Shown: positions 6,360 to 59,949 of the stretch, piece after piece | Layout: each line of letters begins with the position of its first letter | Position numbering within the stretch: position 1 is the first letter of the stretch | DNA from: Planctomycetaceae bacterium | GTDB lineage: Bacteria; Planctomycetota; Phycisphaerae; SM23-33 | DNA: 64,000 bases | Assembly (NCBI GenBank): GCA_039680605.1 | Contig: JBDKTA010000039.1 | Span: forward strand, 62,001 to 126,000 | Reading direction: 5' to 3' | Translations under genes and position numbers: made by a program | The notes under the pieces: model-generated | Databases searched by the model: none | What the model saw: the letters and a program-made list of their open reading frames with translations, nothing else | Told to the model about the DNA's origin: nothing

Positions 6360-6466
6360 GTAGCACGGGCATCTTGCCCATGCATCCCCGATCCTTCAGC
6401 GATCGGGGACACGCACAACGGAGTTGTGCGTGGCACCCGCGCCTCGCCATCGCGCGACCGTGCTAC
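6360..6466. repeat. Composite REP element with GTAG feet
   Basis: Begins GTAGCACGGGC and ends with CCGTGCTAC, so the outer ends are inverted. Inside, at 6405-6438, is the REP half GGGGACACGCACAACGGAGT found in the transposase-linked units. GTAG at the foot of a palindrome is the recognition tetranucleotide known for RAYT/REP systems. A second composite of the same make-up is at 51486-51624. It fills the gap between the two beta-helix genes. Confidence 0.7.
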
Positions 6467-22252: not shown

Positions 22253-22393
22253 GGGTGCCACGCACAACTCCGTTGTGCGTGCCAATGTGTCTGGTCCTGA
22301 GAAGATCGTTGAAGGGAAACAGAAGCGACCTTCAGGATTGCGATGTCCCGAGGTTCCCGGGGACACGCACAACGGAGTTGTGCGTGGCACCCC
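22253..22393. repeat. Dispersed two-REP (BIME-like) unit, 141 bp
   Basis: Starts with GGGTGCCACGCACAACTCCG (REP1, stem CACGCACAAC with GTTGTGCGTG) and ends with the inverted GGGGACACGCACAACGGAGT...GGCACCC (REP2). About 75 nt lie between the two REPs. It matches the layout of the four 148-bp units next to the transposase at 57.3 kb and lies between the kinase gene and hicB. Confidence 0.85.
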
Positions 22394-51509: not shown

Positions 51510-51624
51510 GGAGCATGGGCGCGACGGGTGCCACACACAACTCCGTTGTGCGTGTCCCCGACCGCAAAGGCGGAGAGCATGGGCGAGACGCCCATGCTAC
51601 TCACGGGCAGGATGCCCGTGCTAC
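51486..51624. repeat. Composite REP element with GTAG feet
   Basis: Three palindromes lie back to back. GTAGCACGGGC-N5-GCCC occurs at the left, the REP half GGGTGCCACACACAACTCCG at 51526-51559, and two GTAG-footed stems at the right (reverse strand GTAGCACGGGCATCCTGCCC and GTAGCATGGGCGTCTCGCCC). GTAG-footed stems are the classical RAYT substrate. A relative is at 6360-6466. The element fills the gap between the aminotransferase and the kinase. Confidence 0.75.
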
Positions 51625-55820: not shown

Positions 55821-56947
55821 AAACGCTTCGAGTTGGGTTCGTGGGCTTCGGGTTCATCGGCAAAGTCCACGCATACGGGTACATCAACCTGCCGCTGTTC
55901 TACAACCTGCCCGTTAAGGCGCAGATCACGCATGTCTGCACCAGCAGCGACAAGAGCGCCCAAGCCGCCGCCGCCCAGATCGGCGCGCGCTACGGAGTGA
56001 CGGACTTCCGGACCATCACGGAAAACCCCGACGTGGACGTGGTGCATATTTGCACGCCCAACCACCTCCACCGCGAGGCGCTGCTGTCGGCGATGGCCGC
56101 CGGCAAGCACATCTACTGCGACAAGCCCCTCACCGCCACGCTGGCCGAAGCGCGCCAGATCGAAGCGGCGCTGCCGGCCTACACGGGCACCGCCCAGATG
56201 ACGCTGCAGAACCGGTTCTTTCCTGCGACGATGCGGGCCAAGCAGCTCATCGACGAAGGCTTTGTCGGCCGCGCGATCGAGTTCCGCGCCGCGTACCTGC
56301 ACTCGGGCAGCGTGGACGAAAAAGCCCCGCTGAAGTGGAAGCTCTCCGCCGCCGCCGGCGGGGGGGTGATCGCCGACCTGGGCTCGCACGTGCTGGACCT
56401 GGTTCACTGGCTGCTGGGCGACTACGAGCGGGTGCTGGCGGCGACGACGATCGCCTACCCGACGCGGCCGTCAGCCGACGACCCTTCGCGCCAGGTGACG
56501 GTCGACGCCGAAGACAGCGTGATGCTGCTGGCGAAGATGGCCGGCGGCGCGCTGGGCACGATCGAAGCGAGCAAGATCGCCACCGGCGCCGAAGACGAAA
56601 TCCGCTTCGAAATCCACGGCACCCGAGGCGCCCTGCGGTTCAACGGCATGGACCCTCACCACCTGGAAGCCTACGACCTGGGCGCGCCTGACAAACCCAC
56701 CGGAGGCCTGCGCGGCTGGACGAAGATCGACACCGGCCAACGCTACCCTGCCCCCGCCAGCGGCCTGCCCGGCGCCAAAATGGCCATCGGCTGGACGCGC
56801 GCCCACATGGCCTGCCTGGCGAATTTCGTCAGCGACATCCTCGCCGGCCGCCCCGGCGATCCGGGCCTGCGGCAGGGAGTCTACATCCAGAAGTTGATCG
56901 ACACCGTTGCCCGATCCGCCACCGCGCAGCAGTGGACAAAAGTCTAG
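55817..56947 (+). CDS. Gfo/Idh/MocA family oxidoreductase
   Basis: A 376-residue NAD(P)-dependent sugar oxidoreductase. The N-terminal Rossmann motif is VGFVGFGFIGKVHAYGYINL, with VVHICTPNHLHREALLSAM and KHIYCDKPLTATLAEARQIE (the EKP-type lysine, here DKP). The C-terminal domain has GGGVIADLGSHVLDLVHWLL, with the catalytic aspartate and histidine. The family works on inositol, glucose and other sugars. It ends the catabolic run, ten bases before the first unit of the REP array. Confidence 0.9.
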   Translation: MKTLRVGFVGFGFIGKVHAYGYINLPLFYNLPVKAQITHVCTSSDKSAQAAAAQIGARYGVTDFRTITENPDVDVVHICTPNHLHREALLSAMAAGKHIYCDKPLTATLAEARQIEAALPAYTGTAQMTLQNRFFPATMRAKQLIDEGFVGRAIEFRAAYLHSGSVDEKAPLKWKLSAAAGGGVIADLGSHVLDLVHWLLGDYERVLAATTIAYPTRPSADDPSRQVTVDAEDSVMLLAKMAGGALGTIEASKIATGAEDEIRFEIHGTRGALRFNGMDPHHLEAYDLGAPDKPTGGLRGWTKIDTGQRYPAPASGLPGAKMAIGWTRAHMACLANFVSDILAGRPGDPGLRQGVYIQKLIDTVARSATAQQWTKV

Positions 56948-56956
56948 CCCCGGTCC

Positions 56957-57104
56957 GGGTGCCACGCACAACTCCGTTGTGCGTGCCCATGTGCGCTGTA
57001 CGAGAGAGAGCCGTTGAATGGGAAAGGGATGGCCCTGGCGTTTGAGGGCCTCTCTTCGAAACGTACGGTCGGGGACACGCACAGCGGAGCTGTGCGTGGC
57101 ACCC
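56957..57104. repeat. 148-bp two-REP unit 1 of the transposase-linked array
   Basis: REP1 (GGGTGCCACGCACAACTCCG, 10-bp stem CACGCACAAC/GTTGTGCGTG, TCC loop) lies at the left. A conserved inner part of about 83 nt (TTGAAT, GGCCCTG, TTGAGGG, TCTCTTCGAAACGTACGGTC) follows, then the inverted REP2 (GGGGACACGCACAGCGGAGC...GGCACCC, GGA loop). Exactly 148 bp, followed by a 25-bp linker to the next unit. Confidence 0.92.
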
Positions 57105-57129
57105 CTGCTGATGCGCGATACCCCCGTCC

Positions 57130-57277
57130 GGGTGCCACGCACAACTCCGTTGTGCGTGCCCATGTGCGCCATGCTGAAGTAACCGTTAAATGGGAAAGGA
57201 ACAGCCCTGAGGTTTGAGGGTCTCTCTTCGAAACGTGCGGTTCAGGGACACGCACAGCGGAGCTGTGCGTGGCACCC
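57130..57277. repeat. 148-bp two-REP unit 2 of the transposase-linked array
   Basis: Same organisation and same 148-bp length as unit 1, beginning 173 bp after it. The inner part differs at several bases (GGAAAGGAACAGCCCTGAGG) but keeps TTTGAGGGTCTCTCTTCGAA. It ends 50 bp before the transposase start. Confidence 0.92.
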
Positions 57278-57327
57278 GGCGGAGGGGGAACTTGTGTGGG
57301 ATGTTCTGATGTGATAAGGTGCCGGCC

Positions 57328-57906
57328 ATGCAGATACGTGGGGAAAAACATCGAAAACTGTGCCAGCGATGGGATGTGCCGTATGGGGTGCATTATCTGA
57401 CGTTCTCATGTTATCGGCGGCAGCCGTTCTTCGGCAGCGAGAGAACGTGTCGGTGGTTCTTGGAGTGTCTGGATCAGGCGCGGGCGCGGCAGGGATTTCA
57501 TCTGTGGGCGTGGGTCATCATGCCTGAGCATGTCCACGCCCTGATTTCTATCCCAAATGAGGCACAGATCAGCGCCATTCTCAGGTCGATCAAGTATCCC
57601 TTGGCGCGGCGGGCGATTTTGTGGGCCAAAGAAAACCGCCCGGACCGGATGGGTTCGATGGAAGTGATCGGACCGGACGGGATCGTCTCGTACCGGTTCT
57701 GGCAGCGCGGCGGGGGGTACGACCGGAACATGCGATCGACTCGCGATGTGCATGAGAAGATACGGTATATCCACAACAATCCGGTGCGGCGGGAGTTGGT
57801 CCGGCGGCCGGAGGATTGGCCCTGGTCAAGCTGGCGCGCCAATCAAACGAGAGAAGACATACCTCTGCGAATCGACCGCGAGACGATTCCAATCCTTGTT
57901 GAATAG
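57328..57906 (+). CDS. REP-associated tyrosine transposase (RAYT, Y1_Tnp family)
   Basis: A 192-residue single-strand-specific transposase. The HUH motif is H68-V69-H70 in VIMPEHVHALISIP, and the catalytic tyrosine is most likely Y147 in KIRYIHNNPVRRELV. The N-terminus (VPYGVHYLTFSCYRRQPFF) and the end of the domain (WPWSSWRAN) are typical of RAYTs, which cut and move REP hairpins rather than themselves. ATG 57328 is chosen; GTG 57319 is in frame. It is flanked on both sides by units of the same REP family, with a half unit starting 11 bp after its stop. This is strong evidence that these repeats are its substrate. No frameshift is seen. Confidence 0.93.
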   Translation: MQIRGEKHRKLCQRWDVPYGVHYLTFSCYRRQPFFGSERTCRWFLECLDQARARQGFHLWAWVIMPEHVHALISIPNEAQISAILRSIKYPLARRAILWAKENRPDRMGSMEVIGPDGIVSYRFWQRGGGYDRNMRSTRDVHEKIRYIHNNPVRRELVRRPEDWPWSSWRANQTREDIPLRIDRETIPILVE

Positions 57907-57916
57907 CCGAGCGTCA

Positions 57917-57949
57917 GGGACACGCACAGCGGAGCTGTGTGTGGCACCC
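57917..57949. repeat. Half unit (REP2 only) next to the transposase gene
   Basis: GGGACACGCACAGCGGAGCT...GGCACCC, the REP2 of a unit whose left 115 bp are missing. It is followed by the usual 25-bp linker and the next full unit, so it holds its place in the 173-bp period. Confidence 0.9.
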
Positions 57950-57974
57950 TGCTGGTGCGCGATACCCCCGATCC

Positions 57975-58122
57975 GGGTGCCACGCACAACTCCGTTGTGC
58001 GTGCCCATGTGCGCTGTGCGCGAGAAGTTGTTGAATGGAAGAGGCGCGGCCCTGATCGGTTGAGGGTCTTTCGTCGAAACGTGCGGTCGGAGACACGCAC
58101 AGCGGAGCTGTGCGTGGCACCC
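57975..58122. repeat. 148-bp two-REP unit 3 of the transposase-linked array
   Basis: Full unit with REP1, a conserved inner part (AGTTGTTGAATGGAAGAGGC, TTGAGGGTCTTTCGTCGAAA) and REP2. It starts 25 bp after the half unit. Confidence 0.92.
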
Positions 58123-58147
58123 CTGCGGTGCGTGATGCCCCCGGTCC

Positions 58148-58295
58148 GGGTGCCACGCACAACTCCGTTGTGCGTGCCCATGTGCGCTGTGCGCGAGAAG
58201 TTGTTGAATGGAAAAGACGCGGCCCTGATCGGTCGAGGGTCTTTCGTCGAAACATACGGTCGGGGACACGCACAGCGGAGCTGTGCGTGGCACCC
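58148..58295. repeat. 148-bp two-REP unit 4 of the transposase-linked array
   Basis: Full unit starting exactly 173 bp after unit 3 and nearly identical to it in the inner part (AGTTGTTGAATGGAAAAGAC). It ends 29 bp before the small basic peptide gene stop. Confidence 0.92.
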
Positions 58296-58324
58296 CGGTT
58301 GGGCGGAGTGCGATGTGGCGTCAG

Positions 58325-58405
58325 TTACTTCTTAGCGCCCTTGGCGGCTTTGCTCTTTTTGGGCTTCTTGACGTTCTTGCGCGGGGCGTTGCTGCCTTTT
58401 GCCAT
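58325..58405 (-). CDS. Small basic lysine-rich peptide, 26 residues
   Basis: ATG at 58405 opens a 26-codon frame (MAKGSNAPRKNVKKPKKSKA then AKGAKK) ending in TAA. The start is preceded by AAGGAAA about nine bases upstream, a fair ribosome binding site. Short peptides of the MAKG-type with KKPKK runs are found in many bacteria without known function. It lies 12 bp after the stop of the amidase-like gene on the same strand and may be co-transcribed. Similarity to such peptides is from memory. Confidence 0.6.
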   Translation of the reverse strand: MAKGSNAPRKNVKKPKKSKAAKGAKK

Positions 58406-58417
58406 GGTCGGGTTTCC

Positions 58418-58993
58418 TTACGGTATCAACTGTTTGGTGAATGACTCGACGGGGAACGCCAGACCGGGGGCGTCGCTGCCGTCAAGTTCGCAGCGGAGGT
58501 AGACGTGGCTGTGATTGATGTTCAGCGGCGCACCCTGCAGCAGTTGGGTCAGGGCGACCAGGGCCTTGTACTGCTCGGGACCGGGGGCGACTTTCGAGAA
58601 GTCGCCGATCAGGCAGACGCTGATGGTTTCGGCGTTGAACGAGGCAGGCTGACCCGCGACGCCCAATCCGGCGGCCTGGCGTTTCCACAACGCCGAGGCA
58701 TGGACGGCCGTTCCGTTGGAAGATTCAACGACGACGAAGTGGCATCGGCGGGCGATGTCGCTCTCGACGGAGGGGGAGGAATGGATGACGATGTGGCGCC
58801 ATCGCGAGGGGAGCATGGGGGCGTCGGTGTCCAGCAGTTTCGCATCGAGCACGGGCGGCTGAGGCGCTACGACGACGGCGGCAATCTCTCCCGGCGGGAG
58901 CGGGTCGCCGCTCATCATCCAAAGCAACAACGCGCCGCTTGTCATGGAGATCAGCAGCGCCAGCAGCGTTTTGACTGTACGTGGTTCTACCAT
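58418..58993 (-). CDS. N-acetylmuramoyl-L-alanine amidase/PGRP-like protein
   Basis: A 191-residue protein with an N-terminal membrane segment (TVKTLLALLISMTSGALLLW, residues 6-25). An amidase_2/PGRP-type domain follows: WRHIVIHSSPSVESDIARRC, HFVVVESSNG, and ISVCLIGDFSKVAPGPEQYK. The first zinc histidine sits in IVIHSS and further histidines are in the NHSHVYLR block; one ligand is uncertain, so activity is not assured. Probably anchored in the inner membrane and acting on peptidoglycan. ATG 58993 was chosen; a longer frame extends to 59173. Confidence 0.7.
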   Translation of the reverse strand: MVEPRTVKTLLALLISMTSGALLLWMMSGDPLPPGEIAAVVVAPQPPVLDAKLLDTDAPMLPSRWRHIVIHSSPSVESDIARRCHFVVVESSNGTAVHASALWKRQAAGLGVAGQPASFNAETISVCLIGDFSKVAPGPEQYKALVALTQLLQGAPLNINHSHVYLRCELDGSDAPGLAFPVESFTKQLIP

Positions 58994-59190
58994 GTGCCGT
59001 CCGGCCTTCACGTTTTGCCCCAGGCGAGCATCCGGCTGTCTGGGGATTCTATGGCTGCTATCGGTCAGTGGCAATCTTATTCGCGAGAAAAAATTCGGGC
59101 AAAAGCGGAGAAATGGGTCCAAAAGAGGCCGCCGGGTAAAGCCGGCCCGCCAACGGCGGATAGGGGAACCCATGAAGGGGCGTTAGTGCG

Positions 59191-59949
59191 TCATTCCACG
59201 CCCAACACGCTGCCGTCGTTGCGGGCGACGAGGCGCCGCCCGGGAGGCACGATGGTAAAATCGTCGTCCCACCGCCCGGCAAAGAGCTTCTCCAGCAGCG
59301 TCCAGTCGCCCCGGAGCAGCTCGAAGTCCCACTGGCGCTGGGCCGCCTCGGCGCGGGTCTTGGCGATGGCGGCCGATTCGTCGCACGCGTCCATCTGCAG
59401 ATAGCAGAAGCGGCTGTAGTTCTTCGTCCAGTCGCCCAGGCTTTCGAGGATGAAGTCGGCGTTTTCCTTGCCGTACTTGGCGACCATGCCCTCGTAGTCG
59501 TCGGCCAGCCCGAGCTTGCCCATCACGCCCTGGCGATCGTACGCCGGGCGGTCGTAGCCTTCCCCCGGGGTGACGTTTCGCTCCGACCACCCCGTGGTCA
59601 TGTAATACGTGCCGGGGTGCTTGTCGAAGTACGCCTGGTACGCCCCGCGCGAACCAAAGAAGAACGTCACGCAGTCGTGGGCGCGGGGGATCACCAGCGG
59701 CCGCGTGCGGGCGGTCAGGCCGACCAGCCCGTCGTTGCAGCGGGCGTAGCCCAGCAGGATGGCCTCGTAGCGCCCTTCGGCGTCGGCGGCGTCGACCGCC
59801 GCCTGCACGCGGGCGATCATGTCGGCCCGCTCCAGGTCGTGCAGACCCTTGCGCAGGAACTCGACGTCGACCTGGTGAACGCTCCGCGCCGCCAGCAGGC
59901 ACGCCTCGCGATAAATAATCTCACAGCCGATGAATTTGTACACGCTCAT
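59191..59949 (-). CDS. DUF1638-family protein
   Basis: A 252-residue cytoplasmic protein. Blocks FIGCEIIYREACLLAARSVH, EAILLGYARCNDGLVGLTAR, RPLVIPRAHDCVTFFFGSRG and the later MTTGWSERN are the hallmarks of DUF1638. These proteins occur near URO-D-like and corrinoid methyltransferase genes in anaerobes; their biochemical role is not settled. Here a URO-D gene lies 1.1 kb away on the opposite strand, which fits. ATG 59949 gives the family-typical start. Confidence 0.8.
   Translation of the reverse strand: MSVYKFIGCEIIYREACLLAARSVHQVDVEFLRKGLHDLERADMIARVQAAVDAADAEGRYEAILLGYARCNDGLVGLTARTRPLVIPRAHDCVTFFFGSRGAYQAYFDKHPGTYYMTTGWSERNVTPGEGYDRPAYDRQGVMGKLGLADDYEGMVAKYGKENADFILESLGDWTKNYSRFCYLQMDACDESAAIAKTRAEAAQRQWDFELLRGDWTLLEKLFAGRWDDDFTIVPPGRRLVARNDGSVLGVE

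Follow-up and report, generated by a model that had tools for sequence, protein, structure and literature searches.

With a probability of roughly 0.87, the locus described here is a REPtron, in which a single gene for a REP-associated tyrosine transposase (RAYT) is embedded in a tandem array of REPINs (a BIME) built from its cognate REPs. It lies in the window, by which we mean the whole stretch of 64,000 nucleotides that was analysed, a part of contig C39 of a draft assembly of 5.23 Mb in 72 contigs (genome G000). The anatomy of the locus, the family of its enzyme, the REP family across the genome, the status of the array as the only one among mapped REPs and the association in related genomes were all observed directly. 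A preliminary description had placed a RAYT within a periodic array of cognate REPs, and this was borne out: the protein passed the family profile, and the association of REPs and transposase holds both genome-wide and in relatives.

Anatomy of the array and its RAYT gene

Four REPIN units of 148 bp were located on the plus strand at 56957..57104 (U1), 57130..57277 (U2), 57975..58122 (U3) and 58148..58295 (U4), U1 reading as b-REP, interior and inverted a-REP. Plus-strand linkers of 25 bp separate U1 from U2 (57105..57129) and U3 from U4 (58123..58147), and a third (57950..57974) joins U3 to a 33-bp half unit on the minus strand (57917..57949), which is the RAYT gene's own 3' a-REP and has a single altered stem base (CACACACAGC...). 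The 173-bp period, the unit, half-unit and linker lengths of the preliminary description were thereby recovered when coordinates were re-measured, all three REP-to-REP linkers being 25 bp. The array begins 9 bp past the stop codon of the upstream gene, and these 9 bp (56948..56956, plus strand) match the end of the U3-U4 linker and form a linker remnant at the array's left edge.

Each unit contains two facing hairpins with 10-bp stems and loops of TCC and, on the plus strand, GGA, as had been described; because GGA is TCC on the other strand, both hairpins represent one REP read in opposite directions. The b-arm reads GGGTGC-CACGCACAAC-TCC-GTTGTGCGTG, followed by CCCATG, and the a-arm, read on the other strand, has AGC...GCT in its stem and is followed by TCCC(T/C)GA or TCTCCGA. 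With these two inverted REPs, which differ slightly in type (b and a), each unit makes up a REPIN. All four units have inverted REPs that can fold into a long hairpin, with DNA fold z scores of -8.9 for U1, -6.1 for U2, -5.6 for U3 and -5.7 for U4, and the array as a whole has the regular spacing, alternating orientation and two alternating inter-REP segments of a BIME (+-+-|-+-+-). The 23-base REP core, allowing at most 3 mismatches and counting both strands of near-palindromes, occurred 24 times in the window and 0 times in 100 shuffles. There was no Rfam match in 56000-59300. To the right of the array, a short lysine-rich open reading frame of 26 aa lies on the minus strand at 58325-58405 (MAKGSNAPRKNVKKPKKSKAAKGAKK), and two of 59 other genomes have similar frames, at 84% and 74% identity.

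The RAYT gene (57328..57906, plus strand) encodes 192 aa from an ATG at 57328, a GTG start at 57319 also being possible. The protein has an HUH motif, H68-V-H70, and a catalytic Tyr147, which are conserved in 54 (H68), 55 (H70) and 54 (Y147) of 55 aligned sequences. The open reading frame scored 111.3 bits against the NCBIfam equivalog NF047646 (REP_Tyr_transpos; cut-off 80) and carries Pfam domain PF01797 (Y1_Tnp), and its best solved relative by sequence is TnpAREP (PDB 4er8, E=3.5e-8). Judged by its sequence, the gene codes for an HUH/Y1 REP-associated tyrosine transposase and is intact. It is also the one close RAYT in the 5.23-Mb genome, as expected of one gene copy per REP family: a search of the genome returned one RAYT match of 458 bits, and the other match reached 21.8 bits at 28% identity.

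These scores bear on whether the locus is instead an ordinary insertion sequence of the IS200/IS605 kind whose ends form hairpins, a reading we consider very improbable. The Y1 transposase domain would fit it, as would a match to NF033573; however, that match, at 27.1 bits, lies far under the cut-off of 55, whereas NF047646 was passed clearly, and there is a single close gene copy in the genome while the REPs far outnumber the gene. Membership in IS200/IS605, defined by a profile match over the cut-off together with several mobile copies, was accordingly rejected.

Cognate REPs occupy both sides of the RAYT gene and are abundant genome-wide. The nearest flanking REPs stand in direct rather than inverted order, the inverted partner ending 170 bp upstream. 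By analogy with its family, the RAYT enzyme, a single-strand-DNA HUH/Y1 nuclease, would bind the folded REP strand, cut near the REP via Tyr147 and rejoin the strands, and REPs would in this way become dispersed.

Array units and dispersed REPs

The REP pattern (at most 3 mismatches) was present at 116 places in the genome, compared to 0 for a control pattern. Genome-wide copies were thus compared, as the preliminary description had proposed, and they comprise 116 REPs with one close RAYT and an array around that RAYT. For mapping, 76 stretches (302 kb) were fetched, and in these 104 REPs were located at 2 mismatches or fewer, of which 9 belong to the array and 95 are dispersed. No second tandem REPIN array was found among these 104 mapped REPs, which leave at least 12 of the 116 unmapped. 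Most dispersed REPs (75 of 95) had no neighbour within 200 bp, and these singlets were of type a in 66 cases, type b in 2 and unclear in 7. Their hairpin core is nearly invariant, and information drops fast outside it. Within the window, dispersed copies comprise singlets at 6410..6432 (minus strand) and 51532..51554 (plus strand, 1 mismatch) and a REPIN, b then inverted a, at 22259..22386 (plus strand). By a crude codon model, 76 of the 104 mapped REPs lay outside predicted genes, 33 of these between convergent and 3 between divergent genes; the remaining 28, scored as inside genes, are an upper figure because the model overextends gene starts.

The array and 73 of the 75 singlets carry the tag GTGC, and the other 2 singlets have GTGG. 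Since the superfamily of GTAG-tagged REPs carries an unpaired GT(A/G)G tag at the hairpin foot, the locus is not filed there. Ahead of GGTGCC, a number of singlets have in common a longer 5' stretch like ATGGGCGAGACG, as would be expected if they descended from a single master or had hit a single kind of target. Elsewhere on the same contig, outside the window, the neighbouring REPs at G000:C39:53585 and 53653 have other compensated stems (CTCAAC/GTTGAG and CACACC/GGTGTG).

The equal length of the four units masks small compensating indels, and a gapped alignment spans 150 columns. Pairwise identity is 83-96%, with U3 and U4 the nearest pair (142/148). Across the four units 32 of the 150 columns vary, all of them between the arms (P about 3e-11, assuming equivalent columns). 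Thus, the arms have been kept the same even though not every unit is a recent copy of another.

The a-arms carry a further mark. All five a-arms of the array have a G-C pair, whereas the dispersed REPs read AACTCCGTTG in 91 of 95 cases; the array form, a compensatory change from A-T to G-C, occurred in 0 of the 95 dispersed copies and was likewise absent among the other genome-wide matches listed, which cover the first part of the 116 places. This private base pair suggests that the array expanded locally, by duplicating its own unit, and that the dispersed copies have not recently been derived from it. The double change preserves the REP stem while introducing a mismatch into the long REPIN hairpin, which argues that what is maintained is the stem of the single REP. 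Selection or short-tract copying would keep the REP hairpins constant while the interiors drift.

RAYT and REP pairs in related genomes and described systems

We searched 119 other genomes, drawn from outside the window's genus, and a RAYT match was present in 82 of 120 genomes with its own included; the REP pattern used for the window's genome recurred in 2 of the 119 (4 and 11 copies). A hairpin tagged GGGTG(C/G) lay within 700 bp of 40 of 54 RAYT loci; among 270 shuffled controls the figure was 20. The order REP+, gene, REP-, from which the window's locus departs in its nearest REPs, was seen at 21 of the 54 loci and at 0 of the 270 controls. This set comprises loci of at least 100 bits, the window's among them; it omits L136-L140, whose proteins are identical to other rows, and retains repeated copies from L162 and L163. 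Removal of identical proteins left 51 loci at the same threshold, 40 with the hairpin on at least one side and 11 without such a hairpin. One of the omitted proteins, that of L136 (Phycisphaerae bacterium SMBSF08), is identical to the RAYT of L064 in G024, a genome of the window's family, which puts the window within or close to the Phycisphaerae. Stems vary between genomes and the tag is kept. Furthermore, cognate REPs were abundant in all three other genomes tested, with 114 (G056), 196 (G024) and 73 (G038) copies and 0 in controls.

Periodic arrays also accompany other RAYTs: L078 shows a 61-bp period to either side of the gene, and periods of 65, 104 and 128 bp occur in L076, L082 and L179, respectively. 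In L168 (G061; 1255-2278 in gene orientation) the RAYT again lies inside a tandem REPIN array, with units, read from the positions of GGGTGCC and GGCACCC, of 79 and 80 bp to its left and 80 and 81 bp to its right, 25-bp linkers, and 17 bp of linker before the third unit. RAYTs are normally single, and tandem copies are unusual; L162 (G104:C1:2613160-2620910) has three tandem RAYT genes with identical proteins at a spacing of 1578 bp, plus a copy on the opposite strand, and its first two periods are identical at 1576 of 1578 positions.

Singlets predominate among the REPs of G000 (75 of 95), G024 and G038 (28 of 30 sampled in each), whereas those of the fourth genome, G056, are mostly doublets with a 54-bp spacing (44 of 50 sampled). 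The REP monomer may be the spreading unit in part of the clade. Position 6 of the tag (C or G) is clustered on the RAYT tree, with 9 changes compared to a shuffled mean of about 12; 9 and 11 of 500 shuffles were as low, on a tree of 40 rows with only 5 of 37 inner branches starred. This is weak evidence that tag and RAYT coevolve.

Under the guide rule described for Marinomonas, as presented in PMC8266576, a REP with a GTGC tag would be cut at GA or GC. A cut site based on this rule was tried and dropped: many G000 copies have a longer upstream stretch in common, G024 (GTGC tag) has GT at -4 and no GA end (30 REPs, 30 loci), and the GTGG genomes G056 (50 REPs) and G038 (30 REPs) gave no clear CA or CC end at 30 loci each. 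The four bases ahead of GGTG form a motif G-N-(C/T)-G that is common to G000, G024, G038 and G056 despite their quite different stems, most clearly in G056 and G024, and that may reflect a target preference, belong to the REP itself or serve as a cut site.

The locus belongs to a described kind, the REPtron or BIME, here in a planctomycete host and with a GTGC tag in place of GT(A/G)G. According to the account of Nunvar 2010 (PMC2817692), RAYTs are flanked by REPs, one third of their loci are joined to modular BIMEs, and BIMEs are modelled to grow by a rolling circle. Like the REPtrons of Stenotrophomonas and E. coli described there, the present one has a BIME of alternating REPs with two inter-REP segments, the RAYT's downstream REP doubles as a BIME REP, and altered REPs retain the palindrome; unlike them, it has a planctomycete host, a GTGC tag, and a-REPs in direct order on either side of the gene. 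In P. fluorescens SBW25, tandem REPIN clusters lie beside each RAYT (Bertels and Rainey 2011, PMC3116915). Both systems have ordered tandem REPINs including their flanks, and the largest SBW25 cluster is reported as four REPINs and one extra REP. The SBW25 report places tandem clusters at 16 places and reads singlets as remnants, whereas one array was found here and 75 of the 95 mapped dispersed REPs are singlets.

In the survey of Di Nocera 2013 (PMC3733652), Planctomycetes are listed among REP carriers, REPtrons differ in the relative placement of their flanking REPs, and R. baltica is mentioned as harbouring many tyrosine transposase genes with repeats beside them. The TIRtrons (TIRYT) of the same survey combine RAYT-like genes with inverted repeats that have no GTAG tag, some forming repeat families, as here; their common motif is described as GGGGWSAS, and the repeats at the present locus are hairpins with a GGGTG(C/G) tag. 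The transposase resembles TnpAREP subclass 2.4, as characterised in PMC6006769, in its W motif (WQ), its Y motif (YIHNNP, within YIxNNP) and its length (192 aa compared to a median of 194), and differs in having EHVH instead of NHxH, given there as NH(IFV)H, and in a tag other than GT(A/G)G. Searches of the open-access literature, which were not aimed at the tag itself, did not turn up this GTGC-tagged family in the texts consulted.

Phase of the gene and formation of the array

The gene is in phase with the array. Its 50-bp 5' flank (57278..57327, plus strand), which contains no linker sequence, the RAYT gene and one a-REP together form a 672-bp module (57278..57949, plus strand), and the starts of U2 and U3 are 57975-57130 = 845 = 672 + 173 bp apart. 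Excising 57278-57949 leaves a perfect four-unit array with a 173-bp period. An in-phase module of 672 bp therefore explains the layout without any loss. On this reading, the array would have been born beside the gene via repeated duplication of the 173-bp unit of REPIN plus linker, and the gene with its own 3' REP would form an in-phase module placed after the a-REP of U2.

The preliminary description had instead taken the half unit to lack its left 115 bp as if the gene had replaced them. In this alternative, a five-unit array once existed and the RAYT replaced one linker and the left 115 bp of the third unit. It yields the identical layout and phase, and, since the usual order has a plus-strand REP upstream, a b-gene-a unit minus its b-REP and linker would look alike. 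However, it requires a loss of 140 bp that insertion does not, the 50-bp 5' flank showed no trace of either b-REP or linker, and a single inverted REP directly after the stop codon is usual in related RAYT loci, the 33-bp half unit being such a REP. The replacement is thus not needed, although the layout it predicts is the one observed, and we regard it as unlikely.

A 35-bp direct repeat with one difference surrounds the gene (57243-57277 and 57915-57949), ending both U2 and the module. Together with the exact phase, the direct a-REPs on both sides would suit a gene that moved with one a-REP as a unit, as a circle, into an existing array by strand transfer or recombination at the U2 a-REP, and the RAYT of L168 likewise stands between two REPIN pairs. 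Against this, a gene-free array was not found among the 104 mapped REPs, and RAYTs are not known, in the account of PMC2817692, to move their own genes; this course of events is conceivable but rather doubtful. In a search for an empty site, the Gfo/Idh gene was not found beside the downstream amidase at any of 9 related loci (1.5-kb flanks), and homologues of that amidase are present in 31 of 35 genomes of the family, its own included.

Recombination across the same 35-bp repeat would delete exactly 672 bp, as would be required if the whole REPtron had duplicated in tandem and REP-REP recombination had then removed the extra genes, each leaving one exact 173-bp unit. The tandem RAYTs of L162, with their nearly identical periods, are a precedent for the duplication, but they belong to another genome and share only 41-42% identity, and the window's array contains neither a second RAYT copy nor a decayed one; we hold this history to be improbable as well. 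In its wider form, in which REPtrons duplicate and the direct a-REPs beside the gene recombine and delete each extra gene in phase, periodic REPIN arrays would be footprints of lost transposase copies and would record past genes rather than the transposition of repeats, a generalisation that is quite unlikely.

The expectation that the locus would give a view of how such arrays grow was borne out in part: the phase of gene and REPs and the private base pair are visible, while the mechanism of growth suggested above is read from them. RAYT and REP pairs with a GGGTG(C/G) tag are now documented through planctomycete relatives. The arithmetic of the locus (845 = 672 + 173) separates models of REP/BIME array formation, and the array-private marker base pair, together with relatives that have comparable arrays, bears on how REP/BIME arrays form.
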